From: Lachnospiraceae bacterium AC2012
Lineage (GTDB): Bacteria; Bacillota; Clostridia; Lachnospirales; Lachnospiraceae
Direction of reading: 5' to 3'
Assembly (NCBI GenBank): GCA_000702525.1
Contig: JNIN01000001.1
Span: 124,001-188,000 of the forward strand
DNA length: 64,000 bases
The translations under genes were made by a program, and so were the position numbers. This document shows, one piece after another, positions 33,382 to 53,605 of the stretch. Each line of letters starts with the position of its first letter. Positions within the stretch are counted from its first letter, which is position 1. A model generated the notes under the pieces. That model worked only from the letters and a program-made list of their open reading frames with translations, made no database searches and had not been told where the DNA came from.

Positions 33382-34322
33382 TAAATGCACATTTTTGGCT
33401 GGTTTTGGCAATCCTGATTATCAATCTGTTGATTGTGGTTGGCTATTATATCTTTATGATTTTTTTGCTTCCCATTTTTTATCAGAGGCAAAACCGCAGA
33501 GATCAAGTGGATCGCAGGAAATGTTACATCACCTGCATCGTGATGTTTTTCTGCCCATTGATTGGAGAATTCTATTTTGTACTCAGCTATGTTTTCTATC
33601 GTCTGTTCTTCCGAAGAACCGTTGATTTGGCGGACGTTGTATTTAGCAAGGATCGAGTAAAATCTCTACATCGAGGCGATGATGAGATGGAACGCAACAT
33701 CGTTCCATTGGAGGAGGCACTTGCCGTTTCAGATAAGCAGAGTCTCCGTACCCTGATGCTTAACATTTTAAAGGGTGATATTTCAGACTCTCTGCATAGC
33801 GTTTCCGAAGCTTTGAATAGTAAGGACTCTGAGACAGCCCATTATGCAGCATCCGCACTTCGTGATGAATTAAATAATTTCAGAACGGGTGTGCAGGATT
33901 TTTATACTGCCCTGAAGAAAGACGATGCCAATATCGGTTCTTCCGGTGGGGAATTATTGAATTATATGAATGCATTTCTTGCGCAAAATGTATTTAGTCA
34001 GTTAGAACAAAAGACGTATGTACAGATGATGGATGAAGTTGCCACGATTATGTATACGAAAGAGCAAACGTATATGAAGTCTCTGTATTATGAGTGGGTT
34101 TGTATGCGCCTCTTAGAAGTAAAGGATTTTGAGAATTGTGAGAAATGGTGCCTTCGCGCGAAGGAACAATATCCATCGGAATTGGGATCCTATACCTGTC
34201 TTTTAAAACTATATTTTGAAAAACAGCAGAAGGAAGATTTCTTTAGAGTCATGAAGGAATTGAAGTCTTCGAATGTTGCAATTGATCGGGAAACATTAGA
34301 GATGATTCGTACGTTTTCCTAG
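33378..34322 (+). CDS. pelE: PelE-like membrane protein
   Basis: A 314-aa protein with two N-terminal membrane helices (about 7-33 and 48-75) and a cytoplasmic helical, TPR-like region to the end. This is the layout of PelE, which joins PelD, PelF and PelG in the inner-membrane complex. Identification rests on layout and position between pelD and the pelF-pelG genes. The start is coupled to pelD (ATGA). Confidence 0.7.
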   Translation: MINAHFWLVLAILIINLLIVVGYYIFMIFLLPIFYQRQNRRDQVDRRKCYITCIVMFFCPLIGEFYFVLSYVFYRLFFRRTVDLADVVFSKDRVKSLHRGDDEMERNIVPLEEALAVSDKQSLRTLMLNILKGDISDSLHSVSEALNSKDSETAHYAASALRDELNNFRTGVQDFYTALKKDDANIGSSGGELLNYMNAFLAQNVFSQLEQKTYVQMMDEVATIMYTKEQTYMKSLYYEWVCMRLLEVKDFENCEKWCLRAKEQYPSELGSYTCLLKLYFEKQQKEDFFRVMKELKSSNVAIDRETLEMIRTFS

Positions 34323-34355
34323 ACGAGAAAGAATACGAGAAAGGAGGGAAAAACT

Positions 34356-37016
34356 ATGAGCATGGCTGTGTTGACGATATTACAGTTTATCGGTATTTTT
34401 GCAGCGTATTTAACGATGACATTGTTTCTCCCTGCCATCTTGTTTCATAAAAGAGTGCAACATTATGAGTTTTCGCTTCGTTTTATGATCTATTTCCTAT
34501 GGGGAAATTTCTATATGATGAATGTTGTTTTTATCTTACAACTTCTTCATATATGTAATCGCTTTACTTTGATTCTTGTGACATTCGTATTATTTCTTCT
34601 TTTCTATTTTTCGGAACGAGGAAGAAATATGGGGGATGCCATCAATCACCAGTTGAATGTGATTCGTAAATATCTGTCGGGCGTACTAGGTAGAAAGACA
34701 CTTGGCCGAAGCATCCGGAAAAAGAAGAGAATCTTTCGAAGAGGTTTTTTGAAATGGTTCATCAAGACCATTTGTTTTCACTTCCCGGAATTTGCGGCTC
34801 TAACGGGATTAGTGGTCTTTACCATCTATATCTTTGGAAGTACGTATCTTGTGAATTATGGATATAATGCATCCGATCTGGTCGTTCATAATTATTGGAT
34901 CAATGGATTAAAAGAGGGAAAATTATTCGTCGCCGGTATCTATCCTTTTGGATATCATATCGTTCTTTATTTTCTCAGTGAAGTTTTTGGGATTCGCGTT
35001 CTGACACTTCTTCGTTTGTTTGGATTGGTACAGATTCTCTATGTAGAATTGATGCTGATTGCTACCGTTTCGGCTTTGTCAAAATCGAAATATGTAGCTT
35101 ATTTATCCGGGATTTTATATCTCGGTGTGAATGTATGGAATCCGGATTGTTTCGCGAGATTTCATGCGCCACTGCCACAGGAGTATGGCATGATTTTCAT
35201 CCTGCCTTCCGTATGTTTTGCGCTTCGATATTTCCAGTTAAAGGAAGTGGAGCTGTACGAGAAGATGAAAGCAGATGGCTGGAAGGACATGAAGCTCTAT
35301 CGGAAATGGAAACGCCAGGAGCGAAGATATCAAAAACAGCAGGAGAAGGGAAATCGCTATCTCCCTTATCCGCTCGGATTTCGTTGGATGTCACTTGCCA
35401 AGAAATGGGCATTGCTTCGCATGTTTATAAAGATATTTCGAAGACTTCGTTTAGAGAGACATAAGAGGACGCTGTCTGCTTTTCATGAGTCCAGTTGGAT
35501 GCTGATTTATTTTGCTCTGGCATTCCAGGCGACGTTGGCGGTTCATTTCTACGATACGATTATCGCGGGAATTGCCTATATTGCCATTGCGATTGCATTT
35601 TTTAGAAAATTTATTAAGGGCGAATACTTCTGCATTTTGATGCAGACCGGTATATTGGCATTTTTATGTGCGATTTATCCATTTGTATTTGCTTTTCTTG
35701 GTGGTACACCGTTCCAGGGTTCCATGGGTTGGGCACTTGGCGTCATCAAGGGAGATTCGTCGGGCGATTCCGCTATGCAGGAAGAGTTGAATCAGGAACT
35801 GCAAAATGGAATGGAGGAAGGCGATATAGCTTTCTTTGATTCTGATGGTAATCTGGTGGCGATTCAGAAGAATGATGGTACCGTGATCGGTTCCGTTTCT
35901 TATGTGAAACAGTTCAGTCCTTATGAAGTGACAAATGGAACGGATGCGGATGCTTCGACAGAGGATGATAGCCAGGAGCAGGAGAATCAAAAACAATCCG
36001 GTATCGTAAAACGGGTTTCGTCCCTTGTGGTTTCGAAGGCAAAAGCCATGGGTAGTAAAATAAAATCCTTTGCACTTCTTTGTAAGGAGAATTTCCCGGA
36101 TTTTGTAGAGGAATATCTGCAGAACAAAGAGACGGGATTAAAGCATATGGCACTTTATCTTATGATTGGAATTTTCGTTACGCTTGCGGTGTCGATTTTG
36201 GTTCGTGTGCGTTCGTATTCCTATGGACAGATGGTTTGTGCCCTTGGTCTTTCCAGTGGTTTTCTGGCTTTGCTTTTAATGGCCGAAGGAATTGGACTCC
36301 CGGTGTTAATCGATGCGAATCGAACGAGATATTTCTTTGTTTACTTCTTTAGTATGATGCTAGGGATTCTAGTAGACGCGGTGATTTATCTTGTTGCCGG
36401 ATGGAAGAAATGGGTACGACCGATGCGAGTGCTTGCGCTTGGTCTGCTTTCGATGACGCTGCTTGTGTTTTATCAGCAGCATAGGTATGTGTCAGCATAC
36501 AAGGTGGAAGCACAGGAGACGAATGGCTCGATTCTATGTACATCAAGTATTTTAGAGACGCATACGAAGAAGGATTTTACGATTATTTCTGCAAATGATG
36601 AAATGCAGATGTTAGATACCGAAGGATTCCATACGGAGACGATTGATCTTCTTCGCGAGATGGAAGGATATGATGCGGATTCTTATTTCGCATGTCCGAC
36701 GGAGTATGTCTATGTTTATGTTGAGAAATATCCATTGGATTATTATACAAGTTGGTATGGAAGTGGCTCGGAAGTTTCAGAAGAGGGAGCTGCTTTGGAA
36801 TTACCAAAGGCAAGTGGTTTAGATATTTATGTTGGGGAAAACCGTTGGATTGTGATGTCAAAGCTCTATTATTGGGCGAAGGAATTTCAGCGGATGTATC
36901 CGAATGAGATGAATGTGTACTACGAGGATGATGATTTTATCTGTTATGAAATCAAACAAAATACGAGTGCACTACTGAATTTAGCAATTGATTACGGTTT
37001 CAATGTTGGAGAGTAA
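34356..37016 (+). CDS. Large polytopic membrane protein of the pel operon, GT-C-like
   Basis: An 886-aa protein with roughly a dozen membrane helices. An early outside loop carries an Asp (YNASDLVVHNYW) and a GIYPFGYH segment, which recall GT-C glycosyltransferases such as the PMT/ArnT group. A basic cytoplasmic section (about 285-370) and an acidic outside loop (about 470-550, rich in Asp, Glu, Gln) interrupt the helices. It ends with an extracytoplasmic domain of about 170 residues. It has no counterpart in the Pseudomonas pel operon. AAAGGAGGG precedes ATG 34356. The function (polymerase, decoration or lipid-linked transfer) is inference. Confidence 0.5.
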   Translation: MSMAVLTILQFIGIFAAYLTMTLFLPAILFHKRVQHYEFSLRFMIYFLWGNFYMMNVVFILQLLHICNRFTLILVTFVLFLLFYFSERGRNMGDAINHQLNVIRKYLSGVLGRKTLGRSIRKKKRIFRRGFLKWFIKTICFHFPEFAALTGLVVFTIYIFGSTYLVNYGYNASDLVVHNYWINGLKEGKLFVAGIYPFGYHIVLYFLSEVFGIRVLTLLRLFGLVQILYVELMLIATVSALSKSKYVAYLSGILYLGVNVWNPDCFARFHAPLPQEYGMIFILPSVCFALRYFQLKEVELYEKMKADGWKDMKLYRKWKRQERRYQKQQEKGNRYLPYPLGFRWMSLAKKWALLRMFIKIFRRLRLERHKRTLSAFHESSWMLIYFALAFQATLAVHFYDTIIAGIAYIAIAIAFFRKFIKGEYFCILMQTGILAFLCAIYPFVFAFLGGTPFQGSMGWALGVIKGDSSGDSAMQEELNQELQNGMEEGDIAFFDSDGNLVAIQKNDGTVIGSVSYVKQFSPYEVTNGTDADASTEDDSQEQENQKQSGIVKRVSSLVVSKAKAMGSKIKSFALLCKENFPDFVEEYLQNKETGLKHMALYLMIGIFVTLAVSILVRVRSYSYGQMVCALGLSSGFLALLLMAEGIGLPVLIDANRTRYFFVYFFSMMLGILVDAVIYLVAGWKKWVRPMRVLALGLLSMTLLVFYQQHRYVSAYKVEAQETNGSILCTSSILETHTKKDFTIISANDEMQMLDTEGFHTETIDLLREMEGYDADSYFACPTEYVYVYVEKYPLDYYTSWYGSGSEVSEEGAALELPKASGLDIYVGENRWIVMSKLYYWAKEFQRMYPNEMNVYYEDDDFICYEIKQNTSALLNLAIDYGFNVGE

Positions 37017-37021
37017 AAGCG

Positions 37022-38860
37022 ATGATTAGTCGAAGAAATTTCGCAATGATTTCCTTAATTATGTTGGTTCTTTTGGGACTCTTTATGTTTACGGAAGCTG
37101 CGAAGCAGGAACTGAATAAATATGATTCGAATCCTTATACAGGGGATGTAGAAAAGGGAGGAGAAAGCGATCAGGTCTATCAGGTTAGTGATAGCACAGA
37201 GAGCGCTTATTCTGTCTATATCGGCGAGGATTCCTCGGAGATTGAGATGACAGTGGAGCAATGGAGCGGTTATCATCATTCGAATCTTTTGACCTACACA
37301 TCTTGTGAGGATGCAAAGATGGATGCGGAACATAAGCCGGAATTTATTGTGATTCAGGGAAGCTCCATAGAGGAATCGGATGTGGATATCATCGGAGACT
37401 GGATTCAGCAGGGTGCATATATTATCTTTGCTGATATGCCATCGTTGAAATTAATCAAAGGAAATGAGACCCTTCGTGCTTATCTTGGTATTTCAGAAGT
37501 TTATCAGGACGAAGTGGAATTGACCGGTATGAGCCTTCGGGAAGGCTTTCTGATTGGTGGAGCGGGAGATTATGTAGAAGATACGGATTATGAAGAAGAT
37601 ATGCAGGATCTGGATTTGACTACGCCATGGTATCTTCTTTCTTCCGGTACGAAGATGTATCTGGCTGGAGAAATCGAAGATGAGGATTATAAGGAATATT
37701 TTGGAGAAGATAATTTCAATAATTATCCAACGGCATTTCTTCCTGGAATCATCTGGAGAAATAGTATCGACGATGCCAGAGTGTTTGTAGTAAATGGCGA
37801 TTATATGAAATCCGATACGGGGATTGGTCTTCTCTATGCGATGGAATATGAAGTGTCCGGTTTCCAGATTTATCCGGTGGTGAATGCACAGAGTACGGTT
37901 ATGACAGCCTATCCAACCTTTGCATCCGAAAATGGAGAACAGATGAATCAGATCTATTCCCGAGATGCGATTAGTGTTCTTAGAGATATCGTATGGCCGG
38001 GGTTGGTAGAGATTATGACAAATACCAATAGCCGTATGACCTTTATGTTGCAGACAAGAATCGATTATAGTGATCAGACGGCTATCGATGTTGGTGATAT
38101 TGCGATGCTGATGCGTTTCCTTGGAATTCAGGAAACAGAAGCAGGACTTAGTCTCGGTGGAAAAGGAACACTGAGTAGTTTGGAACAGTTACAACAGGAC
38201 AAGGAAATCTATGATACCTATCTTCCGGATTATACGTTCCAGACAGCATATATAGGGACCCAGGATGCAGGGGATGTGCAGTCTGTTTTATCGGAAGAAG
38301 GTTATACGGATGTATCGACGATGCTTCGTGATTATGAGGCGAATGGGGAAATCTTCTCGTATCTTTCCGATGATACGTTACTTCTTTCCTCCATTAATAC
38401 AGGATCTTCACATACGTATTCCGAGGATTTAAGAGCCAGAAGTATTGAGACAGCCTTTGCCTATTCCCTGATTTCTGAGGATTTAAGTGAAGTGATTTAT
38501 CCTACGACCAAAGAGCAGGAGTGGCAGAATCTGTATGAGAAGTTATCCTCTTATTGCGTTGCACTGTTTCAGCAGTATGATGCATTTGATGAATTGACAC
38601 TTTCCGAGACATCCCAGCGTGTCAGAGATTATTTCCAGGCGGATTATGAAATCCGTCGGGAAGGAAAGGCGATTACACTCACATCTGCGGAGGATTCTGG
38701 ATACTTTATCTTCCGAACACATGGAGAGAAGATTGTAGAGATCGAGGGAGCGGACTATGAGAAACTGGAAGATGATGCTTATCTTATCAGCCTGCATAGT
38801 AAGTCCGTGACGATAACCATGGATCAGGAGTCAGAGGTATATTATTACGAAGGGAATTAG
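37022..38860 (+). CDS. Membrane-anchored extracytoplasmic protein of the pel operon, DUF2194-like
   Basis: A 612-aa protein with one N-terminal helix (about 8-26), everything else outside. Residues about 80-250 look like a flavodoxin or GATase-like fold (FIVIQGSSIEESDVDIIGDWIQQG, then IIFADMPSL). The middle (about 255-470) recalls a degenerate polysaccharide deacetylase barrel, and the last 60 residues form beta strands. I associate this with DUF2194, but with low certainty. It sits where pelA, the Pel deacetylase/hydrolase, would be. I see no clear metal-binding Asp-His-His set. It lies 5 bases after the preceding gene. Confidence 0.5.
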   Translation: MISRRNFAMISLIMLVLLGLFMFTEAAKQELNKYDSNPYTGDVEKGGESDQVYQVSDSTESAYSVYIGEDSSEIEMTVEQWSGYHHSNLLTYTSCEDAKMDAEHKPEFIVIQGSSIEESDVDIIGDWIQQGAYIIFADMPSLKLIKGNETLRAYLGISEVYQDEVELTGMSLREGFLIGGAGDYVEDTDYEEDMQDLDLTTPWYLLSSGTKMYLAGEIEDEDYKEYFGEDNFNNYPTAFLPGIIWRNSIDDARVFVVNGDYMKSDTGIGLLYAMEYEVSGFQIYPVVNAQSTVMTAYPTFASENGEQMNQIYSRDAISVLRDIVWPGLVEIMTNTNSRMTFMLQTRIDYSDQTAIDVGDIAMLMRFLGIQETEAGLSLGGKGTLSSLEQLQQDKEIYDTYLPDYTFQTAYIGTQDAGDVQSVLSEEGYTDVSTMLRDYEANGEIFSYLSDDTLLLSSINTGSSHTYSEDLRARSIETAFAYSLISEDLSEVIYPTTKEQEWQNLYEKLSSYCVALFQQYDAFDELTLSETSQRVRDYFQADYEIRREGKAITLTSAEDSGYFIFRTHGEKIVEIEGADYEKLEDDAYLISLHSKSVTITMDQESEVYYYEGN

Positions 38861-38863
38861 GAT

Positions 38864-40291
38864 ATGAAGATCTGTTTGGTGGCGGAAGGCTGCTACCCTT
38901 ATGTGGTTGGTGGCGTTTCCAGTTGGATTCACAGTTTAATCAATCAGTTTCCGCAACATGAATTTATTATTTTATCCATTGTTGCAGATCGAAGCATGCG
39001 TGGAAAATTTGTCTATGATTTAGCGGATAATGTGACGGAAGTGTATGAATTATATTTGACAGATTATGATTGGTCACTGGCATCGAAAAATACGAGAAGA
39101 CGTACCTATCGATTGAATAAGACGGAGAAGGAGGCACTTTGTTCCTTACTTCTCAATCAAAATATCGACTGGGATACGATCTTTACGTTATTCCAGCGGG
39201 ATCATCTCTCTGTGGATGCGTTGCTGATGGGAGAGGATTTCTTGGAGGCAGTGAAAGAGGTTTATCGAAAGAAATATACCGATGCGGTATTTTCGGATTT
39301 CCTGTGGACGATGAGATCCATCTATTTACCGCTGTTTTTGACCTTGCAATTTAAGGTGCCAAAGGCAGATTTATATCATTGTGTGGCAACCGGATATGCT
39401 GGTGTACTTGGTTCTATGGCAAAAGCGAAATACCAGTGCGGGCTCTTGATCTCCGAGCATGGAATCTATACGAGAGAACGTGAAGAGGAATTGGTAAAAG
39501 CGAAGTGGGTACAGGGTATTTACAAGAATATCTGGATTGAGCAGTTTCGAAAGATGTCTTATTTGGGATACCAGAGAGCAGATCTGGTAACTTCCTTATT
39601 CGAACATGCAAGAGAGTTACAGATGGAACTGGGATGTCCATCACAGAAATTGCAGGTAACACCAAATGGTATTAGTGTCGAACGCTTTACCAATCTTCCC
39701 GGTAAGACGAAGGAGGATTTGGATTACTTCAATATTGGTGCCGTCATTCGTATTGCACCAATTAAGGATGTTAAGACTTTGATTCGTGCTTATTATTATG
39801 CAAAGCTGCAGGAACCAAGACTGAAATTATGGATTCTTGGTCCTTGGGAAGAAGAGATGGAATATGCCAAGGAATGTTTTGATATGGTGGATTCCATGAA
39901 GATTCAGGATGTGATCTTTACCGGTCGTGTCGATGTGCGGGAATATTATGGAAGGATGGATTGCACAATTCTTACTTCTATTAGTGAGGGTCAGCCATTG
40001 ACGATTCTCGAAGGATTTGCTGCACATAAACCGGCGATTGCGACGGATGTTGGTAACTGCCGGGGATTAATTGAGGGAGAAGCCGATGACTTTGGCCCGG
40101 CTGGTATCGTGACCTATATTATGAATGTGGAAGATATTGCGAATGCGATGGTTTCTATGGCTCGGAATCCAGAGCGTACTAACCGCATGGGAGAAGCCGG
40201 TTATCAGAGATTGATGACAAAATATAAAGTAGAGGATATGCGCCATACCTATGATGAGATTTATCAGGGGTTTGACACAGGAAAGGAATAG
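38864..40291 (+). CDS. pelF: PelF-type family 4 glycosyltransferase
   Basis: A 475-aa cytosolic GT-B enzyme. The opening MKICLVAEGCYPYVVGGVSSWIH is the hallmark of PelF. Nucleotide-sugar binding in the C-terminal lobe includes SEGQPLTILEGFAA (an E-x7-E type motif) and ATDVGNCRGLIEG. PelF polymerises the Pel chain, in Pseudomonas from UDP-sugars, together with PelD, PelE and PelG. It starts 3 bases after the previous gene and is 6 bases before pelG. It is the best single identifier of the locus. Confidence 0.92.
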   Translation: MKICLVAEGCYPYVVGGVSSWIHSLINQFPQHEFIILSIVADRSMRGKFVYDLADNVTEVYELYLTDYDWSLASKNTRRRTYRLNKTEKEALCSLLLNQNIDWDTIFTLFQRDHLSVDALLMGEDFLEAVKEVYRKKYTDAVFSDFLWTMRSIYLPLFLTLQFKVPKADLYHCVATGYAGVLGSMAKAKYQCGLLISEHGIYTREREEELVKAKWVQGIYKNIWIEQFRKMSYLGYQRADLVTSLFEHARELQMELGCPSQKLQVTPNGISVERFTNLPGKTKEDLDYFNIGAVIRIAPIKDVKTLIRAYYYAKLQEPRLKLWILGPWEEEMEYAKECFDMVDSMKIQDVIFTGRVDVREYYGRMDCTILTSISEGQPLTILEGFAAHKPAIATDVGNCRGLIEGEADDFGPAGIVTYIMNVEDIANAMVSMARNPERTNRMGEAGYQRLMTKYKVEDMRHTYDEIYQGFDTGKE

Positions 40292-40297
40292 CAGGGG

Positions 40298-41746
40298 ATG
40301 GCAGGTATAGGTGTAAAACTGAATAAAATTTATCGGAAGAAGTCGCTCCTTGCGCATCTTACCGGTTTTGCCTATAGTACAATCATTACGATTGCACCAA
40401 TGATTGTTATTATGATTACGATTGTTGCAATGCAGAAGTTGCTTGGATATGAGCAGGTGAATTATGCGAGAAGAGCACTCTTCTCCTGTACGGTACTCTA
40501 TATTTTTATCTTTGCTTTGCTTGCAGCTTCGCCATTTAATGCGGTCCTTTCGCGTTATATGTCGGATGTGATTTATCAGGAGAATTATGGTGATATTATC
40601 CCATGTTTCTATACGGGTTTATGGATGAATATTGTCTTTGGTGCCATTTTTGGAATACCATTTGTGATCCATGAATTTCTGACGAAAGAAGTGGATCCGC
40701 TCTTTATCTTTGTTTCGTATTGTGGATATTTCGCTTTGATTTTCGTATTTTATACGATGCTGTATCTATCGATTTGTAAGGATTATGCCAAGATTACCTG
40801 GTTCTATCTGGTCGGCATGTTATCCTCGATTGGGTGCAGTCTACTCCTGGTCAAGCTCTGTCATGTGGAGATTGTCTTTGGTATGTTACTTTCGCTTGTT
40901 ATAGGATTCTTACTGATTGCGATTTTAGAAATGGCGCAGGTGAAGAATTATTTCCAGGAGAATACACGTACCTATACCAAGGTATTTCCTTATTTCAAAG
41001 AATTTTGGCCGCTGATTGTGAGTAACTTTCTGTATGTATGCGGACTGTATGTGCATAATTTTGTGTTCTGGACTGGGGATTTACAGATGAAGGTTGTGGA
41101 TACGTTTGTCTGTGCAGAGCCATATGATATGGCTACTTTCCTGGCATTGATTACGAATTTTACATCGACTGTCATCTTTATTTCGAATGTGGAATTACAT
41201 TTCCATCAGAGATATAAGGCATATTCGGAATCGGTTATTGGTGGTCGATTGATGGATATTGAAAATGCAAAGAGTCGAATGTTTGGACAGTTATCGATGG
41301 AATTGTCAGATTTAACTCGAATTCAATTTATTATTTCCGTCATCATATTCCTGATTTTTATAGTATGCTTACCTATGCTTGGAATTGCCGGATTGCCGCT
41401 TCAGATTTATCCATGTTTGGCAGCAGGTTATTTTGTATTGTTTATTATGTATGGAGAGTTGATTTTCCTTTACTATTTCAATGATTTGCAGGGAGCCGTG
41501 TTGACTTCTGCCGGATTTTTCGTAACGGCAATGGTTGGTTCCTTTATCTCTATGCATTTTAGTACCATCTGGTATGGCATGGGATTATTTGTTGGTGCCT
41601 TTGTTGGATGGACGATTGGATATTTCCGATTACGTTGGGTGGAGAAACATATGGATCTTCATATTTTCTGTCGTGGAAATCTGATGAAGAAAGGTCATGG
41701 AAATCGACCAAGCGATAAAGTTTATACGAAGGAGGGGTTATCGTAA
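40298..41746 (+). CDS. pelG: PelG-type polysaccharide transporter
   Basis: A 482-aa polytopic protein with about 12 membrane helices, of the MOP/Wzx-like group. The opening with LLAHLTGFAYSTIITIAPM fits PelG, which exports Pel through the membrane in complex with PelD-PelE-PelF. It follows pelF directly, and its stop overlaps the next start by one base. Confidence 0.88.
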   Translation: MAGIGVKLNKIYRKKSLLAHLTGFAYSTIITIAPMIVIMITIVAMQKLLGYEQVNYARRALFSCTVLYIFIFALLAASPFNAVLSRYMSDVIYQENYGDIIPCFYTGLWMNIVFGAIFGIPFVIHEFLTKEVDPLFIFVSYCGYFALIFVFYTMLYLSICKDYAKITWFYLVGMLSSIGCSLLLVKLCHVEIVFGMLLSLVIGFLLIAILEMAQVKNYFQENTRTYTKVFPYFKEFWPLIVSNFLYVCGLYVHNFVFWTGDLQMKVVDTFVCAEPYDMATFLALITNFTSTVIFISNVELHFHQRYKAYSESVIGGRLMDIENAKSRMFGQLSMELSDLTRIQFIISVIIFLIFIVCLPMLGIAGLPLQIYPCLAAGYFVLFIMYGELIFLYYFNDLQGAVLTSAGFFVTAMVGSFISMHFSTIWYGMGLFVGAFVGWTIGYFRLRWVEKHMDLHIFCRGNLMKKGHGNRPSDKVYTKEGLS

Positions 41747-44152: not shown

Positions 44153-45437
44153 GGACAAAGATTTTAACAGTCGAGAGGGAATTCGATATCAGGTAAATCC
44201 AGGCAGAGGGTTTTATCAAGTCTATCCGTTTGATTTATCGAAAGAGCTGGATACCGCATATCTGGATACAACGATGGATAATCGGGATAGTCTCTGCCTA
44301 GTGGAGATTTGTCTGAAGGCTTATCGGAAATGCGAAATCCCATCCGAAGGAATCCATGCGCTGCATCGGATTTTAGAATACTTTCGTCGGAAGCAAAAGG
44401 ATGTTATTCTACGTTTTACGTATGACTTGGAAGGACATGCAGCAGAGGCGGAGCCGGAGAATCTGGAAATGATACTGTCGCATATGAAGAACCTTCTGGG
44501 GGCGGTGAAACTGTATGATCAAACGGTTCTTATGATGCAGGGTCTCTTTGTTGGAAACTGGGGCGAGATGCATAGTTCCAGATATACGACGGATCGAGCA
44601 CTGAAGAAATTGTATGAGACGTACCGATTGAGTGACGTGGGATATATCTATCTTGCCGTTCGTACACCGGCCATGATTCATCTGCTTTTGGATGAGAATC
44701 CTAGGATTCGGCGACAGATGGAAGAGAAATCTTCTTATTATTCTGAGCATTTACGTCATCTGGATAAGATCGGATTGTTTGATGATGCCATGCTTTATAG
44801 TGAGGATGATTGCGGCACGTTTAACAGGCAGTCGTTACAAGAGGAGATGGACTTTATTCAGGAGCAGGTGACGAAAGTGCCGATTGGCGGAGAAGTGCTC
44901 TATGGTATGCAGGTGACAAAAGCTTACGTGCTGGATCATTTCAAGAAGCTTCATGTGAGTTATCTGAACCGTCAATATGATCAGAGGGTATTGGATCAGT
45001 GGCGAGGAGAGGATTATTTGGATGGTTCCTTCTATGATTACATTGAGAAATACCTCGGCTATTGTCTGCATTTAAATCAGGTGATTTATGATCCGGTGGA
45101 GAATGAGATTCAGGTGGAAGTTACCAATCTTGGGTTTGGAGCACTGCAGGAGACTGCAGAATGGAAGATTCTTATTGAGCAGGAATGGACGAATTGGAAT
45201 ATGGATCATGGCGAGAAGAAGACCGGTATTTCCCTGGAGCAGCAGGCGAGATATCGTGTTCGACATGCCAGTTTACAGCCGGGTAAGACGGTAAAGTGGA
45301 ATATAAAAATAAATTCATTGCCAAAGGGAAAGTACCATTTGACAATGAATTTCGTTCGATTTAAGGATCAGCGCCCGATTTATTTTTCGAATGTAAATCC
45401 GGAAGCGATGGAGAGACTTCCCATCGAACAACCATAG
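44112..45437 (+). CDS. DUF4874/DUF4832 protein, no signal peptide
   Basis: About 441 aa. The N-terminal TIM-barrel-like DUF4874 region (about 30-200; ILRFTYDLEGHAAEAEP, FVGNWGEMHSSRY) is followed by a DUF4832 region ending in a beta-sandwich (about 310-440). The fold resembles glycoside hydrolases. I chose ATG 44112 (AGGGAG upstream); a longer start at 44076 lies deep inside the GT2 gene. Unlike its paralogue it has a basic, non-hydrophobic N-terminus, so it should stay in the cytosol. It overlaps the convergent paralogue by 58 bases. Confidence 0.7.
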   Translation: MISFGRKKKKILFEDKDFNSREGIRYQVNPGRGFYQVYPFDLSKELDTAYLDTTMDNRDSLCLVEICLKAYRKCEIPSEGIHALHRILEYFRRKQKDVILRFTYDLEGHAAEAEPENLEMILSHMKNLLGAVKLYDQTVLMMQGLFVGNWGEMHSSRYTTDRALKKLYETYRLSDVGYIYLAVRTPAMIHLLLDENPRIRRQMEEKSSYYSEHLRHLDKIGLFDDAMLYSEDDCGTFNRQSLQEEMDFIQEQVTKVPIGGEVLYGMQVTKAYVLDHFKKLHVSYLNRQYDQRVLDQWRGEDYLDGSFYDYIEKYLGYCLHLNQVIYDPVENEIQVEVTNLGFGALQETAEWKILIEQEWTNWNMDHGEKKTGISLEQQARYRVRHASLQPGKTVKWNIKINSLPKGKYHLTMNFVRFKDQRPIYFSNVNPEAMERLPIEQP

Positions 45438-46837: not shown

Positions 46838-46924
46838 AAAGAGTCCCCCTGTTTTCTATCATTATAAAGGAAGCACTTGGGGATATACAAGGAAGAGGAG
46901 AAGGTTTTTTGTAAGAGGTGATTT

Positions 46925-47176
46925 ATGGGAATTGATATGCATTGGAACGAATACAAATTAGAGCGAGTGATTGGCACAGAGTGGCTGGTTCATACGACAC
47001 AATCCGGGGAGGATTATGAGAAGGTGCTTCCATTGAATAACATGGGCGCTGAGATTTGTCAGATGTTGATCGAGGGATATTCCGAAGAGGAAGTTGTGAA
47101 GTTTCTGGCAGAGAAATACAATGTCGATGAGCAGGAAATGAAGCAGGACGTGACAGATTTTTTGGAGCAATTATGA
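46925..47176 (+). CDS. PqqD-like peptide-binding (RRE) protein
   Basis: An 83-aa protein of the PqqD fold: LPLNNMGAEICQML then EEVVKFLAEKYNVDEQEMKQDVTDFLEQL. PqqD domains bind leader peptides and hand them to modifying enzymes in RiPP pathways. It is coupled to the nucleotidyltransferase gene (ATGA). It is the first gene of a cluster also holding a candidate substrate, an exporter and a second PqqD-like domain. Confidence 0.82.
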   Translation: MGIDMHWNEYKLERVIGTEWLVHTTQSGEDYEKVLPLNNMGAEICQMLIEGYSEEEVVKFLAEKYNVDEQEMKQDVTDFLEQL

Positions 47177-48318
47177 AGACTTTATTTACAGAAGAAGAGA
47201 AAACGTTATTAGGGTTACTTCGCGGGGAAACCTGTTCGGATACCGCTTTGGTTGCACAGGCAAAACGTCTTGCCAATCAACAGGGGATCTTGCCACTACT
47301 TGGTGAGATTTTAAAGGACGATGAAGCCGTTTATCAGAGCAGTATGCGAAATGTGCGGCAGTATTATTATCTGTTATTTAAGACGAAATATTATGTCAAT
47401 CTCCTGTCGGAAGCCGGAATTGAAACCGTAATTCTAAAGGGATTCCCCGTTGCGAAATATTATCCCATTCCGCAGCTTCGTAAGTCCGGTGATATCGATT
47501 TATTACTTCTTCATCCAGAGGAGATTACGAAGGCCATCGAAGTACTGGCAGCGCATGGCGTTATGCAGATGGAGGAACAGCATGCGAATTATCATGTTGC
47601 CCTGATGACGAAAGAACAGATAGAGATTGAATTACATACATCACTGACGGAAGAATTGGATGATGCGAAAGTAAATCAGGAATTGAAACGCTTGGAGAGA
47701 ACGTTATCGGACCACGTGGAATGGACGTATATTTGCGACAATTTATTCCCTGTTCTATCGCCAGGATATCAGGCTTTTTCCCTATTACTTCACATGCTGC
47801 ATCATTTCATGCGCTCCGGTTTTGGTTTGAAACTTCTTATGGATTGGACGTATTTTTGGAATCATGGGATGGATGAGGAAGAGCGAAAAATCTATGATCG
47901 TTGTGTGGATGCCATCGGTCTTCGCGGCTTTTCAGAAATGATTTCGAGCGCATGTTATTTCGAACTTGGATTAAAAGATGCATCCCTTTTGGGCGAACAA
48001 ATCCGTCGGGAAACGGCAGAGAGTTTTTTAAAGGATGTCCTGGAATCCTATGAATTTGGGTCTATGCAGGATCAGCAGATGGTGAAGATGCGTGGAACGA
48101 AAATGCAGGATTTTCTTCGAGAATTTCATCACCAGATGCATCTGAATTATCCGAACGCGGGAAGGGTCTGGGCGATTTGGCCAGCTCTATGGATTGCTAC
48201 GTTGGTGCGGTTTTTAGTGAATAATCATACCGTTCGGAATACCTCTATGGTTGCGGTATTAAGAAATGCCAAGTCTCGTAGTTCCTATATGGAGGAAATC
48301 AAATTATTTCAAAAATAG
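47173..48318 (+). CDS. Nucleotidyltransferase family protein (NTP_transf_5 type)
   Basis: A 381-aa protein with a minimal nucleotidyltransferase core: VILKGFPVAKYYPIPQLRKSGDIDLLLL (Asp pair in GDIDLL), followed by a helical C-terminal part. This family is known beside lasso peptide and other RiPP clusters and in capsule loci. It may attach a nucleotide or sugar phosphate to a peptide or protein. It follows the PqqD gene with a 4-base overlap. Confidence 0.8.
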   Translation: MKTLFTEEEKTLLGLLRGETCSDTALVAQAKRLANQQGILPLLGEILKDDEAVYQSSMRNVRQYYYLLFKTKYYVNLLSEAGIETVILKGFPVAKYYPIPQLRKSGDIDLLLLHPEEITKAIEVLAAHGVMQMEEQHANYHVALMTKEQIEIELHTSLTEELDDAKVNQELKRLERTLSDHVEWTYICDNLFPVLSPGYQAFSLLLHMLHHFMRSGFGLKLLMDWTYFWNHGMDEEERKIYDRCVDAIGLRGFSEMISSACYFELGLKDASLLGEQIRRETAESFLKDVLESYEFGSMQDQQMVKMRGTKMQDFLREFHHQMHLNYPNAGRVWAIWPALWIATLVRFLVNNHTVRNTSMVAVLRNAKSRSSYMEEIKLFQK

Positions 48319-48331
48319 TGCGGAAATAGGC

Positions 48332-48359
48332 TATACACAGAAAAGATTTGTGGTATTAT
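48332..48359 (+). promoter_or_regulatory. Promoter before the candidate substrate gene
   Basis: TATACA (48332-48337), a 16-base spacer and TATTAT (48354-48359) with an upstream TG (extended -10). This would allow the substrate to be made in excess over the enzymes. Confidence 0.5.
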
Positions 48360-48425
48360 TAGTGTAGGTTATTTATAAAAATTTTATAAAAATGAAACGA
48401 TTGAAATTGGAGGTTGTAGAGAGTT

Positions 48426-48860
48426 ATGTTGGAAAAACCTAGTGTAGTATTAATGGACGATTTAGCAGAAGGGGTTTTTGCTGCAAGTGGTTGTTGGAGT
48501 GGACTTGTTGCAAGTCCACAGGATTTGGATGGTGGTGGCTACCATGTCTTTGAGATTCATCTTACACATTCCAAGGAAGTAGAACATATTTCCACAGCAT
48601 GTACGATTACATTAGCATTTACAGGTGCTGTTATTGACGCTTATGCAGAAAATGGCTGGTCATGTTCTGTAAATGGTAGTACCGTAACGGTTACTCGTCC
48701 AAGTCATGCAAATGCATATAAATCTGGTGAAGAAGTAACATACAAAGTATGGGCTAAGAGTGTAGATGAAGCTACAACAAAGGCTCTTTCTTGCAGCATC
48801 ACAAGCTATGATTGCTCTAAGCAGACGAACGTTCAGGGCGGCGGAGCAGACGGAAACTAA
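48426..48860 (+). CDS. Candidate exported substrate protein with leader-like N-terminus
   Basis: A 144-aa protein. Residues 1-22 (including MDDLAEGVFAASG) are acidic and not hydrophobic, so this is not a Sec signal peptide, yet an AA-S junction like a peptidase cleavage site lies just before Cys23. The rest is beta-rich: residues about 55-125 (ITLAFTGAV, ENGWSCSVNGSTVTVTRP, GEEVTYKVWA) recall CBM2-like or Ig-like sandwiches. Five Cys (23, 59, 80, 123, 130) and a Gly-rich end (QGGGADGN) are present. It lies between the PqqD/nucleotidyltransferase genes and a GT2, opposite an ABC exporter. I infer that it is the substrate of this machinery; no family is recognised. Confidence 0.6.
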   Translation: MLEKPSVVLMDDLAEGVFAASGCWSGLVASPQDLDGGGYHVFEIHLTHSKEVEHISTACTITLAFTGAVIDAYAENGWSCSVNGSTVTVTRPSHANAYKSGEEVTYKVWAKSVDEATTKALSCSITSYDCSKQTNVQGGGADGN

Positions 48861-48866
48861 AAGCAA

Positions 48867-49970
48867 ATGAATAAAAAAGTATCGATTATTATACCGGTAT
48901 ACAATGGAATGGCAACCTTATCAGGTTGCCTTCAGTCTATTGTGGAACAAACTTATGAAGAAATCGAAGTCCTGGTATTAGATGATGGTAGCGAGGAAGC
49001 AGCAGCGCAGCAATTAGATGAGATGATCGACTCCATCTTGGAATATAAGAAGCGAATAGGAAAAAAGCTGGAGATCCAGGTGTACCATTTGGAACATGAA
49101 GGAGTCTCCTCTACCAGAAATCGTGGGATTCGATTGGCGCAGGGAGACTATGTGATGTTTGTAGATGCCGATGATCGACTGTATGATGCCGATGTTGTCC
49201 AGAAATTCCTGGATGTTATGCATCGTGAAAAAGTCGACATTGTGGTAGGCAATTATGTCCGGGAAGTGGATGGTCGTATCGAGCAGACAACCTCTCATAG
49301 TGTCTATCATGCATGGAAGCAGGATAGTTTTGCATACCGGTTTTCGGGATTTTTCTCCGTCGGGCATCTTTCCTATATGTGGGGCAAGATGTTTCGTAGA
49401 GAATCTCTTTTGAGATGGGACATCCCATCTTATGCGATCGATTATGGAGAGGATAAATTATTCTCTTTTGGGTGTTATCTCCATGGCGCAACGTATGCAT
49501 TTTTGGAGGATAACACCTATATTTATGTTCGGAATCTTTCCTCGGTATCGTATCAATACCGGGAGCATTATGAAGATGGCTGGATGCGGATTTCACATGA
49601 GACGGAGCGTTTAGCAGAGCAAGTAGAATCTCTAAAGAAGTATTCTACGAGAAATGCTACTGCTGATTTGATTGCCTGTACCCTGCTTTTTGCTGTATTT
49701 TTCGACGGCAAGATGGTGTATGAAGAGAAGCGGAATCGAGAGAGTTTGCGTCGACTGATCGCATTTTATGGGGATGACGATTGGGCAAGAAAGTATATGC
49801 GATATATTCTTCAACCGAAGGTGCGAAGACAGATTCCAAATCTGGTTTATCGCGTTGGGATACCGATGTTTGAAAGAGCGTTGGACCGACATCACTATGG
49901 ACTCATTTCTATGGGAATCCGATGGATTGTGCATTTGGATATGGATCAGAAGTTTAAGAAGATGAAATAA
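48867..49970 (+). CDS. Family 2 glycosyltransferase
   Basis: A 367-aa GT-A enzyme. It opens VSIIIPVYNG, with LVLDDGSEE and the metal motif FVDADDRLYDAD. The C-terminal half is helical with basic patches. It starts 6 bases after the substrate gene with a poor ribosome site of its own, so it is translationally coupled to it. That suggests it glycosylates the substrate or a linked product. Confidence 0.82.
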   Translation: MNKKVSIIIPVYNGMATLSGCLQSIVEQTYEEIEVLVLDDGSEEAAAQQLDEMIDSILEYKKRIGKKLEIQVYHLEHEGVSSTRNRGIRLAQGDYVMFVDADDRLYDADVVQKFLDVMHREKVDIVVGNYVREVDGRIEQTTSHSVYHAWKQDSFAYRFSGFFSVGHLSYMWGKMFRRESLLRWDIPSYAIDYGEDKLFSFGCYLHGATYAFLEDNTYIYVRNLSSVSYQYREHYEDGWMRISHETERLAEQVESLKKYSTRNATADLIACTLLFAVFFDGKMVYEEKRNRESLRRLIAFYGDDDWARKYMRYILQPKVRRQIPNLVYRVGIPMFERALDRHHYGLISMGIRWIVHLDMDQKFKKMK

Positions 49971-50012
49971 AAGATGCTATTTGAGGAAAAGCCTCAAACA
50001 GCATCTTTTTTA
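49971..50012. terminator. Bidirectional terminator
   Basis: AAGATGCTATTTGAGG pairs with CCTCAAACAGCATCTT, with A- and T-rich flanks. It separates the plus-strand GT2 from the minus-strand ABC exporter. Confidence 0.9.
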
Positions 50013-50013
50013 T

Positions 50014-51786
50014 TTAAAAGTCTTTGATAAGATGTTCGATTTCATCTTCACTTAGGATGTCGCAAGCTTTATCCCGGATGGCATAGACACGGTTACAAAG
50101 GGTTAAAACCGTAGGTCGATGCGTGGTTACAATACAAAGTCTTGGATAGGTATCCGCCATGATATTCTTTAAAACTTTTCGTTCGGTTGTAATATCGAGA
50201 GCGGAGCTTGCTTCATCTAAAAGCAGAATTGGTGATTTCCGAAGAAGCGCTCTTGCAATTGATAATCGCTGCGCCTGTCCTTCGGAGAATCCGCCACCAC
50301 GTTCCTTGATTTCGCTGTTTATGCCGTCCTTCAATTTGGAGACGAAATCATAGGCACAGGCAAGTTTTAATGCTTCGATAATCTCTTCATCCGTAGCATC
50401 CGGTTTTACATTTCTCATGTTTTCAGCAATGGTACCGGACAGCATGGTATTTCCTTGTGGAACGTAGGAGAAGAACTGTCGGGTGGATGGAGACAATGGG
50501 AGTGTGCTTCCGTCTGCTGCAGAAATTTTCGCATCGCCTGCGTGTGCAGGAAGTAGCGAAAGCAGGAGACGAAGCATCGTTGTTTTACCTTCTCCGGATG
50601 GACCAACCAGCCCGATGATTTCGTGCGGATGTCCTTCAAAGCTGGCACCGTGGAAGACTTCCGTTCCGGATTGATAGGAATAGTCCAGAGAGTCGATGGT
50701 GAGTGAGACACCGCTGTCACGATGCATTTCCAGGAAATGTTTCGCTTCATCGAGTCGGGAATAGTCTTCCTGTGGCATTTCGATAATATCCATCAAACGA
50801 CCGGCTGAAGTAGTCAAGCTGATGGCGGATGGAATCATGGAAGACAGTGAGTTTACCGCACCTGTTAATGTGCCGGAGAGCGACAGGAACATGGTCATCG
50901 TACCGTAGGAGATCACACCGGACCACACGCGATAGATTCCCCAACCATAGGAACTGTAGGAGACAAGCAGTCCAACCATTCCGAGGATGATGGAAGTCCA
51001 GATGGACATTCGTGAGAATTCCATTCGCATATTTAAATAATCGGATTGCAGTTGTTTCAATCGCTCGGTATAGAGACGAACGAGGTCGAACGCTTTGATG
51101 GTCTGGATATTGGAGAAAGTCTCCTGGTTAAAACCGGACATCTTTGCGGACATCGCAGCACTTTTCTGATTGTTATTCTGCATTCTTGTTAAGAGCGTTT
51201 TACTCATAAGAAGGGAGAATGGGATTCCAAGTAGTGCGAAGATGGCGAAGGTTGCATCATAGTAGATCACCATGGCAAAGGCACTGAAGAATCGAAACAG
51301 ATTGATAATCAGGTTAGGAATATAGCTCAGGACGCCGTCGGAGATGGCGGATGCATCGCTGCTCCAGCGGGTGAGCAAATCTCCGGTATGGTAGTTTGTC
51401 AGGCTTTCCCAATCTGTGATAAGGATTTTCTCAAAGATATGGGAGCGGATTTCATTGTTTACTTTTAGAGAGATCCAACTACTCGCATAACTCGTAAACT
51501 GACTGATTACGATGGAAAATACCGCGATTCCAATCATGATGGCAAAGGTTTTCGCGAGTTCTCCCGCCTGATGGCCGGTGATGATATCGACAAGGTCTTT
51601 ACTGACCAGACTCGAAAGCAGTGCAACGACCGTTCCACTAAGCCCCAGCACGGTATAGAAAATCATTGCAATCCAGTATTTCTTGGCATAGGAATAAATC
51701 CATTTTGTCTGACGCCACATCTCTTGTACACGTCCTGATTTTATTCGACCCATGTAGAAGTCGATTCTTTCTCCAATATATGACAT
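50014..51786 (-). CDS. ABC transporter, fused permease and ATPase
   Basis: A 590-aa type I exporter half-transporter: six membrane helices in residues about 30-310, then an ATPase. Walker A is GPSGEGKTT, the signature is FSEGQ (SEGQ instead of SGGQ), Walker B is ILLLDEASSALD, and the H-loop is TTHRP. No peptidase C39 domain is present, so a separate protease would be needed for leader removal; the S24/S26-like protein nearby may do this. It follows the HPr-kinase-like gene by 27 bases in the same operon. Confidence 0.9.
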   Translation of the reverse strand: MSYIGERIDFYMGRIKSGRVQEMWRQTKWIYSYAKKYWIAMIFYTVLGLSGTVVALLSSLVSKDLVDIITGHQAGELAKTFAIMIGIAVFSIVISQFTSYASSWISLKVNNEIRSHIFEKILITDWESLTNYHTGDLLTRWSSDASAISDGVLSYIPNLIINLFRFFSAFAMVIYYDATFAIFALLGIPFSLLMSKTLLTRMQNNNQKSAAMSAKMSGFNQETFSNIQTIKAFDLVRLYTERLKQLQSDYLNMRMEFSRMSIWTSIILGMVGLLVSYSSYGWGIYRVWSGVISYGTMTMFLSLSGTLTGAVNSLSSMIPSAISLTTSAGRLMDIIEMPQEDYSRLDEAKHFLEMHRDSGVSLTIDSLDYSYQSGTEVFHGASFEGHPHEIIGLVGPSGEGKTTMLRLLLSLLPAHAGDAKISAADGSTLPLSPSTRQFFSYVPQGNTMLSGTIAENMRNVKPDATDEEIIEALKLACAYDFVSKLKDGINSEIKERGGGFSEGQAQRLSIARALLRKSPILLLDEASSALDITTERKVLKNIMADTYPRLCIVTTHRPTVLTLCNRVYAIRDKACDILSEDEIEHLIKDF

Positions 51787-51813
51787 AAATCTAGTTACCT
51801 CAAAATGATTTTG

Positions 51814-53031
51814 TTAGGATTCCTTGATTTTAGACAGGTAGGAATCGATCTCCTGTTTCATACAAATAGCAGCTTCCTCTTCCATATTGCAATAGAGATG
51901 CCAAATCGGAATCTGATGAAGGAGAGCATCCGTAAATGCGAGATTTTGTTCCATCTGTTCGATGGTCCAAAATGGTGAAATCAATCGCTGCAATACGGAT
52001 AATTGTTTCTCGTCGTCCTTTTTTACCAGAACGTGGTTATCCGCGGACTGGTGTAGGATAATGATTCCGCCCAGAGGATACTTCTCGGTGCTATAGATTC
52101 CAGAGGTTCCACACCATGGGATTCCATAGGTCATAGGACGACTTTGCTGTCCGTCCTTTTCTATGGTAATCAGGTTTAAATCTCCATTGATAAAAGGCGT
52201 TTGAAACCGTTTGTTCCAAAGTGCAGTGTGTGTTGATTTTCCTGTACCGGAAGGGCCGGAAAACAACCATGCCTGACCCTCATATAAAATGGATGCAGAA
52301 TGAAGCAGGAAGGCATCCTGTTTCTGTAACAGATAGGACATGACTAACCGAACCGCATGAAAGATATCATAGCGAAGCTTCTCGTCGGTATCCTCCCTTA
52401 CATAAAAATCCGCCTGTGTTCCATCGTTACTTAAGTGAATACTGTAGATTCCATCAGAGGATGGATATTCTAAAAGATATCCAAGATCTGTCTGATAGAC
52501 CCAAAGCTCCGAAGTATGAACGAGTAGAATACGTTTCATCAGACTCGTATCCGGATAGGGATGAAACAGAATCTGGATGGTCGAATCCATGGAAGCAGGT
52601 ATTGTTTCCTTTGGAAGGAAAAAGTCGTTGAATTCGGAAGATAAATAGCCATCTCCATCATAAAATTTTAAAAGTACACGACCGATCAGCGCCTGATGGG
52701 TTAGATGCGTATCCTCTTTTGGATTTGTATCGATTAGCACCCCAAAGGTCTGCAACATTTGGATAAAACTCGTGAGATCTCCCTGAATCTCTACGGTATC
52801 ATTTCCAGTGAAATCATGTTCTTGCTGCAAAGATAGAAGAAGCTTTTCGACGAGTGCATCTCTGGAAATGTTACGGTCCTCTTTACAGATGGTTTCAATC
52901 TCTCGATAGAGTTTTGCAGAGGATGCATTGAGTTTTAGTTGTCTATGAAAAGTTGCAACGCCCTGTCCAATGGGGAGTAAATAGTCGATTCCCTGAAGGT
53001 TTTGCAACGTATATGCTGATGATGGATACAT
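51814..53031 (-). CDS. PqqD-like domain fused to HPr-kinase-like ATPase
   Basis: About 405 aa. Residues about 20-110 look like a second PqqD-like domain (LKLNASSAKLYREIETI, then a helical region ending DLTSFIQML). Residues about 235-400 form a PEP-carboxykinase/HPr-kinase-like domain with P-loop SGPSGTGKSTHTALW near 258. Similar kinases phosphorylate lasso peptides in Paenibacillus. I chose the ATG at 53029-53031 (AAAGGGGAAAAC upstream); a longer start lacks support. It probably phosphorylates a peptide or protein bound by the PqqD part; this is inference from family and context. Confidence 0.75.
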   Translation of the reverse strand: MYPSSAYTLQNLQGIDYLLPIGQGVATFHRQLKLNASSAKLYREIETICKEDRNISRDALVEKLLLSLQQEHDFTGNDTVEIQGDLTSFIQMLQTFGVLIDTNPKEDTHLTHQALIGRVLLKFYDGDGYLSSEFNDFFLPKETIPASMDSTIQILFHPYPDTSLMKRILLVHTSELWVYQTDLGYLLEYPSSDGIYSIHLSNDGTQADFYVREDTDEKLRYDIFHAVRLVMSYLLQKQDAFLLHSASILYEGQAWLFSGPSGTGKSTHTALWNKRFQTPFINGDLNLITIEKDGQQSRPMTYGIPWCGTSGIYSTEKYPLGGIIILHQSADNHVLVKKDDEKQLSVLQRLISPFWTIEQMEQNLAFTDALLHQIPIWHLYCNMEEEAAICMKQEIDSYLSKIKES

Positions 53032-53161
53032 GTTTTCCCCTTTTCGATATAAAAAATCAATTTTTTTGTAAAACAATTCCTATTATAATGGTTTTTATGA
53101 TGTAAATGTGCGAAAATATAAATAATCTATAAGTTTTTTAAGAGTTATTGAGGTGAGTTTT

Positions 53162-53605
53162 TTGCATAAGCAAGATGTGGAGAAAATGTTAAAGGATGGC
53201 AAGGTTGTACAGCTGTTTCCACAGGGATATAGTATGTACCCACTGTTTGTGCCAAATCGTGATATGGCAGTGATTGCTCCCGTTCGAGAGGTTCGTGTGG
53301 GAGAGGTCTATCTATATCGACGGAAGAATAGCATTCTGGTATTACATCGCTTATGTAAAAAAACAAAAGATGGACTCTATTTTGTCGGTGATAATCAGGC
53401 GGAAATCGAGGGACCGCTTAGAGAAAGTCAGCTCAGAGGACAGATGGTTGGTGTACTTCGAAAGGGTAAGAAGATAGCAACGAATAATATAATTTATATC
53501 ATGTATAGTCGCGTATGGCTTTTTCTTCGCCCGCTTCGTCCGGTGATATCGAAGACAATTCATCAGATTAAGGTATTATGCAGGGAGATTAGACATGGGC
53601 AGTAG
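53162..53605 (+). CDS. S24/S26 (signal peptidase-like) family protein
   Basis: About 147 aa. The serine motif is GYSMYPLF (nucleophile Ser), and a second block has VLHRL and FVGDNQ, as in signal peptidase I-like proteins that use Ser-His rather than Ser-Lys. No N-terminal membrane anchor is present; the C-terminal part (IIYIMYSRVWLFL) could associate with the membrane. I chose TTG 53162, 8 bases after a GAGGTGAG ribosome site, because the GTG at 53153 lies inside that site. It diverges from the HPr-kinase-like gene and likely cleaves the leader. Confidence 0.75.
   Translation: MHKQDVEKMLKDGKVVQLFPQGYSMYPLFVPNRDMAVIAPVREVRVGEVYLYRRKNSILVLHRLCKKTKDGLYFVGDNQAEIEGPLRESQLRGQMVGVLRKGKKIATNNIIYIMYSRVWLFLRPLRPVISKTIHQIKVLCREIRHGQ

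Follow-up and report, generated by a model that had tools for sequence, protein, structure and literature searches.

An LPP-like leader and proposed export system with protein-sized cores next to a Pel-type operon in Lachnospiraceae

Within a stretch of 64,000 nucleotides from Lachnospiraceae bacterium AC2012, an inhabitant of gut or rumen (contig JNIN01000001.1; hereafter the window), positions 46925 to 53605 hold a cluster coding for two recognition elements (RRE) of the kind known from ribosomally synthesized and post-translationally modified peptides (RiPPs), an HPr-kinase-like protein, a nucleotidyltransferase, an S26 signal-peptidase-like protein, an ATP-binding cassette (ABC) exporter and a 144-residue precursor protein. 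With a probability of roughly 70%, this cluster was judged to belong to a RiPP pathway of the type known from Linear Polyphosphorylated Peptides (LPP), as a branch in Lachnospiraceae that acts on a whole folded domain. The suggested mechanism assumes that the cytoplasmic precursor carries a non-Sec leader of 22-24 residues, the [Y/L]xKP part of which would be bound by the RRE domain of the kinase and, in the window, by the discrete RRE as well. Phosphorylation by the kinase would take place at the Ser that is invariant in the AASG end (Ser21 in the window), the putative counterpart of LppA Ser3, and the S26 peptidase would cut within the VYAASG stretch (VFAASG in the window). The core would then be moved out by the MsbA-like ABC exporter and may bind to a glycan or the exopolysaccharide matrix. 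CBM2-like beta-sandwiches or small Cys-rich domains would serve as cargo, several kinds in some genomes and some encoded far away. Tentatively, the system may be seen as a Sec-independent, RiPP-built secretion and maturation route, whose fused RRE-kinase reads the leader, phosphorylates the mature N-terminus and licenses S26 peptidase and ABC exporter, so that folded glycan-binding modules (several kinds in some cells) are delivered into the Pel matrix of gut Lachnospiraceae.

According to those passages of Popov et al. (2026, PMC13381572) on which the comparison is based, LPP clusters comprise a SpI peptidase, an RRE, an HprK, a nucleoside triphosphate (NTP) transferase and an MsbA-like transporter. 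Therein, LppK polyphosphorylates Ser3 of the core, a reaction abolished by the exchanges S3A, S3T and S3Y, and the SipW-like LppS removes the YxxP leader, whereby cleavage is RRE-assisted. The leader was given as YxxPxVLxHQxIxFETxxS, precursors were searched for with the motif Px9Fx[T/A], precursor lengths of 35-200 residues and variable C-termini were allowed, and the authors state that they do not know what LPPs do biologically. The genes named in a first-pass annotation of the window were all confirmed by family scans and open reading frame (ORF) positions. That annotation had considered the cluster as undescribed, which does not hold, as the LPP family has the same set of genes (S26/SipW-like peptidase, RRE, HprK-like kinase, NTP transferase and MsbA-like exporter); judged by its parts the system is LPP-like and hence not wholly undescribed. 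Further features in common are a YxxP leader whose P is followed by V and L, a constant N-terminus followed by a variable C-terminus, one to three precursors per cluster, the location in polysaccharide loci and the lack of a cyclase. The system differs from LPP in that an RRE is fused to the kinase, besides the discrete RRE of the window, in that the leader ends in EGVYAASG instead of HQxIxFETxxS, in that the cores (55-147 residues) are predicted to be folded CBM2-like or Cys-rich domains, in its linkage to Pel genes and in its occurrence in Lachnospiraceae, a word absent from the main text of PMC13381572. The published leader motif is lacking, since Px9 is followed by EGV and not by Fx[T/A], although the YxxP part is kept in most leaders; a Ser is located near the proposed cleavage site, its offset from the P being 16 as compared to 15 in LPP. 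Because the parts are LPP-like and the leaders do not match the published motif, the system is here called an LPP variant. A fused RRE-kinase is not mentioned in the passages of PMC13381572 naming HPr, kinase or signal peptidase. Among the matches listed in literature searches on RiPPs and carbohydrate-binding modules, on Pel and Lachnospiraceae and on LPP, only that report was recognised as dealing with this system, and searches for EGVYAASG and its variants listed solely papers on cancer or biomaterials containing a bare VYAASG.

The first 100 residues of the kinase were identified to be a second RRE. Profile-profile comparison (hhalign) of the kinase N-terminus with the discrete PqqD-family protein of the cluster gave a probability of 99.0% (E 4e-18), which confirms the two PqqD-like modules assumed earlier. 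Compared with the PDB, these 100 residues matched TbiB1 (E 0.002) and LppB (9x8z, 0.059), and the profile of the discrete RRE matched TbiB1 (1.3e-9), TfuB1 (2.8e-7) and LppB (1.8e-5). The kinase was modelled with a predicted local distance difference test (pLDDT) score of 92.5, the N-terminal order of elements being strand-strand-(short helix)-strand-helix-helix-helix; fold searches were silent on this part, as PEPCK and HprK structures fill the matches listed. Residues 100-404 resemble PEPCK (Z 14.7, root-mean-square deviation (rmsd) 4.7, 251 residues aligned), and the kinase domain resembles HprK/P 1ko7 (E 4.6e-5); family scans gave weak PEPCK- or HprK-related matches only. The Walker and NGD residues G261, G263, K264, N281, G282 and D283 are present in 50/50 aligned rows. 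The ORF had been listed as 51814-53076 on the reverse strand, starting from TTG, and the ATG at 53028 is the better start. In LppB, Asp70 contacts the leader Tyr and Phe74 the leader Pro, as stated by Popov et al. (PMC13381572, in part). The corresponding pair is invariant in the discrete RRE (Asp75 and Phe79, 11/11) and largely kept in the fused one (Asp84 in 42 and Phe88 in 43 of 50 rows); both pairs align with the D-x3-F of TbiB1 and LppB, and TfuB1 keeps the Asp only. The HPr-rel-A system (TIGR04352/TIGR04353) likewise combines a PqqD-like and an HprK-related protein; the NCBIfam cut-offs of HprK_rel_A and PqqD_rel_X were far from being reached (15.1 vs 200 and 19.4 vs 35).

Leader conservation was followed across loci found with the kinase, for which 84,980 species genomes were scanned and the best 80 of 211 kinase-related stretches were kept. 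The titles of 65 of these 80 loci name Lachnospiraceae or a genus which we take to belong to this family, and 15 carry other or unresolved labels. Among the carriers are the cultured species Fusicatenibacter saccharivorans, Coprococcus catus and Roseburia porci. A relaxed regular expression for the leader, applied to 96 stretches (the 80 loci and 16 earlier ones, partly from the same genomes again), yielded 108 ORFs from 78 stretches. Within the first 75 residues it matched 108 of 13,797 ORFs, and in a control comprising residues 76-150 of longer ORFs 3 of 1802. Four ORFs were dropped, two as chance matches (L119, 402 residues; L137, 54 residues) and two real-looking ones whose Met is not at the right place (L122, L155), and identical ones were merged, leaving 93 unique precursors, most of which come from records with a Lachnospiraceae label. 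Their leaders follow the consensus Yx[KR]P-x9-EGVYAASG with fixed spacing: Met and Glu are 16 positions apart in 71/93, Pro is found at -10 in 89/93 and Tyr at -13 in 87/93, neither of the latter positions being part of the expression. When Ser and Gly of the AASG end were not demanded, both were still present in 81/81, which for Ser agrees with the strict requirement for Ser described for LppK in the available passages. Information is 4.3 bits at the last Gly, which the expression fixes, drops to 1.6 at the position that follows and stays below 1 over five further positions. None of the 93 leaders contains a Sec-like hydrophobic stretch as judged by 12-residue hydropathy means (maximum 1.32, median 0.72). 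The first-pass annotation had described the leader as non-hydrophobic with the motif EGV[FY]AAS and had named missing conservation among homologues as evidence against it; motif and hydropathy were both found to be conserved. In the AlphaFold2 model of the window precursor, the leader has low confidence (residues 8-19, pLDDT <50). The second substrate of the source genome, a leader-bearing protein of 121 residues on another contig and far from the machinery (L078 9056-9421, i.e., G000:C2, about 474056-474421), carries Tyr where the window precursor has Leu. A motif match EGIYAATG in G139 was taken as chance, there being no leader ORF in the stretch around it.

Relatives of the 144-residue protein were found in 4 of 61 genomes, and one genome of the same genus has all genes of the neighbourhood in unchanged order. 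In a family sample of 200 genomes (one per genus), a close RRE-kinase, defined by E <1e-55 (next best 2e-29), was present in 13, with alignments spanning the RRE part. The precursor profile matched 15 of the 200: all 13 of these genomes as compared to 2/187 others (Fisher p 1e-18). The two exceptions are G104, where the match is weak and outside the leader, and G173, a genome of 68% completeness which possesses PelG, has a leader match on each of three contigs (L195 8762-9175 and L197 2301-2660, both EGVFMASG, and G173:C7) and gave no kinase match. The leader DNA motif itself occurs in 11 of the 200 genomes, a reversed control pattern giving four genomes with one match each. Ten of the 11 motif genomes are among the 13. 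Precursor homologues apart from the cluster, which the first-pass annotation had named as evidence against its reading, were limited to G173 and G104. Plasmid records gave kinase-domain matches only, in 3 records.

That the system is an ordinary LPP, with the large core being incidental and only the lineage being new, is rather unlikely, even though core genes and precursor lengths agree with the published ones as far as these are described in PMC13381572, and even though one genome of the family has the unfused form: in G074, a discrete RRE gene lies directly beside a kinase-only gene, together with S26 and ABC genes (L199 7242-10599). The regular expressions gave neither a leader nor a YxKP peptide in G074, and the fused RRE-kinase may have arisen from such an arrangement. 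Against an ordinary LPP speak the absence of the Px9Fx[T/A] motif by which LPP precursors were found, the cargo, which is a folded CBM2-like domain as modelled, and a comparison across the class. Of 291 genomes sampled across the class, 83 matched the kinase profile at E 1e-20, the RRE part being covered only in G000 and G025; in the other 81 no match begins before kinase residue 102. Eight kinase-only stretches (L187-L194) were read: ABC genes are present in five, S26 genes in L190, L191, L192 and L194, a discrete RRE in six (L187, L188, L190, L191, L192, L194) and a YxKP-type peptide of 43-60 residues also in six (L187, L188, L190, L192, L193, L194), one of these stretches having WxxP-type spacing variants nearby. 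These stretches look like the published LPP form, and the short peptides beside the kinase-only HprK genes are probably LPP-like precursors of that form. Peptides of 54-60 residues from other clostridial families are located at L187 9136-9300, L188 10605-10784, L190 10508-10690 and L193 861-1028.

For the window precursor, AlphaFold2 predicted an all-beta domain (mean pLDDT 79.6) with strands from residue 24 on, in agreement with the beta-rich, protein-sized RiPP substrate proposed in the first-pass annotation; its five Cys are all downstream of the leader. The best Foldseek matches of the core were 9ifr, a domain of a fibrillar adhesin (E 1.6e-4), and 6qfs, a cellulose-binding domain (E 2.9e-4), and VIA aligned 95 residues with 6qfs (Z 8.9, rmsd 2.8), the top six matches (Z 9.0-8.0) being beta domains of chitinases, a cellulose-binding domain and an endoglucanase. 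In the Pfam scan the precursor gave nothing above cut-off, CBM_2 included, and the best match of the precursor profile to sequences of solved structures had E 0.1. The 93 cores were grouped by BLAST linkage and hhalign into a main family (59 members), a CBM2 type (5), a Cys-rich group (14) and smaller ones. The sole scanned member of the CBM2 type (L098) reached 27.3 bits with Pfam CBM_2 (cut-off 24). Between the main family, the CBM2 type and the 14-member and 2-member Cys-rich groups, hhalign probabilities were 0.1-1.4% (main family vs Cys-rich group 0.1%); with two other 2-member groups the main family scored 46.6% and 11.8%, and these may be related. Cores called unrelated are so by sequence profile, and as the model of the main family resembles CBM2, a common fold is possible for some of the groups. 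In two genera, the usual leader is found on small, Cys-rich precursors some 80 residues long (CQ[AS]CSATxG; L068 9390-9635, L077 9339-9584).

The window cluster is located downstream of a Pel-type operon of the Gram-positive kind, which comprises an epimerase, ORFs of 314 and 886 residues without Pfam match, DUF2194, DUF3492/GT4 and PelG (PF16933, E 3.6e-143), and of two DUF4874/DUF4832 proteins. In the part of Whitfield et al. (2020, PMC7112168) used here, DUF4832 was described as an accessory of pel loci from streptococci and clostridia, and Roseburia pel loci as being embedded in larger clusters that also contain genes resembling those for capsule or teichoic acid. In the family sample PelG exceeded the cut-off in 35 of 200 genomes, i.e., in 12/13 close RRE-kinase genomes vs 23/187 others (Fisher p 1.6e-9); in 11 of the 13, PelG and kinase share a contig and are no more than 20 kb apart, G028 carries PelG on a separate contig, and G123 lacks it. 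Pel-operon homologues were found within 25 of the 80 loci and within 19 of the 45 loci exceeding 20 kb. Due to this genetic tie the cores were suggested to be exopolysaccharide-binding matrix proteins. That they are instead bacteriocin-like weapons or signals, with fast-changing cores behind one leader and machine as in conflict systems, is unlikely: a single linked family comprises 59 of the 93 cores, another type matches CBM_2, and the system is tightly linked to Pel genes. In its favour, several core families share one leader, 23 of the 68 stretches yielding unique precursors contain two or three different ones, orphan substrates are scattered away from the machinery (G000:C2, G032:C51 and, by profile only, G025:C55), and the patchy LPP distribution in Bacilli was read by Popov et al. 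(PMC13381572, in part) as typical of conflict genes.

As regards the remaining machinery, the S26 protein matched TIGR02228 below cut-off (5e-7), and its Ser27, His65 and Asp80 are kept in 47/47 rows, Asp80 being the putative equivalent of LppS Asp93 at a different spacing. In Bacillus, a SipW-type peptidase matures biofilm matrix proteins (SipW/TasA secretion), from which the system differs by leaders without a hydrophobic Sec-like stretch and by its dedicated ABC exporter and RRE. The best NCBIfam match of the exporter was MsbA_rel (below cut-off), and no C39 peptidase family was matched besides ABC_membrane and ABC_tran, which distinguishes it from double-glycine bacteriocin export. The NTP transferase residues D107 and D109 are each present in 25/26 rows. 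A covalent function of the accessory enzymes was considered, namely that nucleotidyltransferase and glycosyltransferases elongate the phospho-Ser, joining the protein to surface polysaccharide by a glycan or phosphodiester link. Among the 80 loci, a count conditional on the kinase as search bait, there are NTP_transf_5 (39), flippase-like (33, the representative just under the Pfam cut-off) and Stealth phosphotransferase genes (18), and in the window a GT2 gene starts 6 nt behind the precursor stop. As the NTP transferase and glycosyltransferases are inconstant (GT2 in 11/80), as deletion of lppN was without effect in the published system (PMC13381572, in part) and as the neighbours may be plain polysaccharide genes, such a link was regarded as improbable. 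A degraded or split lasso-peptide cluster is highly improbable and was rejected, since, despite RRE, HprK, NTP transferase, ABC exporter and [Y/W]xxP leader logic in common with paeninodin-like lasso clusters, B2 protease PF13471 stays below cut-off in 13 of 14 cluster genomes (exceeded in G123; weak partial matches in G000, 22.5 bits vs 26, G003 and G103), in line with the first-pass annotation, the cluster is conserved across genera without B2, the cores have protein size and no asparagine-synthetase-like cyclase is among the ten scanned window genes (43343-53605; no genome-wide search was made).

Several findings weigh against the LPP-type pathway with folded, matrix-bound cargo. Gene sets are incomplete: conditional on the kinase, ABC is present in 69, S26 in 62 and the NTP transferase in 39 of the 80 loci, a discrete RRE in 9 by BLAST or 10 by hidden Markov model, and a leader ORF in 61 (40 of 45 loci >20 kb), gaps being partly due to contig ends. 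Divergent RRE-kinase fusions among the weaker kinase matches, in G076 (L198 9245-10441) and G026 (60% complete; L200 9244-10350), are accompanied by neither leader nor ABC nor S26 gene within the surrounding 18-20 kb, so that the fusion alone does not mark the system. The threshold defining the 13 genomes was chosen after the gap between E 2e-58 and 2e-29 had been seen, 23 of 187 genomes have PelG without the system, and the silent lppN deletion also counts here. The window precursor has LxxP where 87/93 have Tyr, and its closest relative FxxP; a passage of PMC12710340 names YxxP-to-LxxP as known variation. The fold match is only moderate, as integrin and cohesin domains follow at Z 8.0-7.7, and fold likeness alone is no evidence of function. 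If the suggested pathway holds true, peptide tailoring would extend to structural proteins, RRE/leader logic would serve protein secretion beyond peptide natural products, the leader could be used for exporting domains from anaerobes, and candidate matrix proteins would be at hand in the gut commensals Roseburia, Coprococcus and Fusicatenibacter. The recognisable cargo, CBM2-like domains beside a Pel operon, makes the role of an LPP-type RiPP directly testable.

Table 1. Features of the cluster and its context, in window positions.
Feature	Position	Strand	Basis
Discrete RRE (PqqD family, LppB/B1-like)	46925..47176	+	PF05402 43.8 bits
NTP_transf_5 nucleotidyltransferase (LppN-like)	47173..48318	+	PF14907 102.2 bits
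Putative leader peptide of the 144-residue precursor (ORF 48426-48860), residues 1-22 (MLEKPSVVLMDDLAEGVFAASG)	48426..48491	+	leader counts, 93 unique precursors
Precursor core, predicted CBM2-like beta-sandwich, five Cys	48492..48860	+	AlphaFold2 model, fold matches
GT2 glycosyltransferase, accessory	48867..49970	+	PF00535 1.6e-29
18-pair terminator-like hairpin between convergent genes	49969..50009	.	site scan
MsbA-like ABC exporter without C39 peptidase (LppD-like)	50014..51786	-	PF00664 + PF00005
HPr-kinase/PEPCK-like kinase domain (LppK-like)	51814..52728	-	model and fold matches
RRE domain at the kinase N-terminus, residues 1-100 from ATG 53028	52729..53028	-	hhalign, model
S26 signal-peptidase-like protein (SipW/archaeal type), LppS-like	53153..53605	+	PF00717 24.8 bits, cut-off 23.3
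Pel-type exopolysaccharide operon, context	31183..41746	+	PelG PF16933, DUF3492+GT4, DUF2194, epimerase

Some minor observations concern the surroundings of the cluster. The hairpin in Table 1 has by far the longest stem among five terminator-like sites (4.8 expected). A separate promoter for the precursor, as assumed earlier, was dropped, the 16 promoter-like sites of the region equalling the 15.0 expected from shuffles. The second PqqD match of the genome (C1:1491762) is surrounded by transporter-like genes with no link seen. The two DUF4874/DUF4832 genes (44076-45437 and 45380-46837) face each other, their ORFs overlapping by 58 nt. Finally, a GGDEF diguanylate cyclase gene (53595-55301) overlaps the end of the S26 gene, so that control of the locus by cyclic di-GMP is possible.

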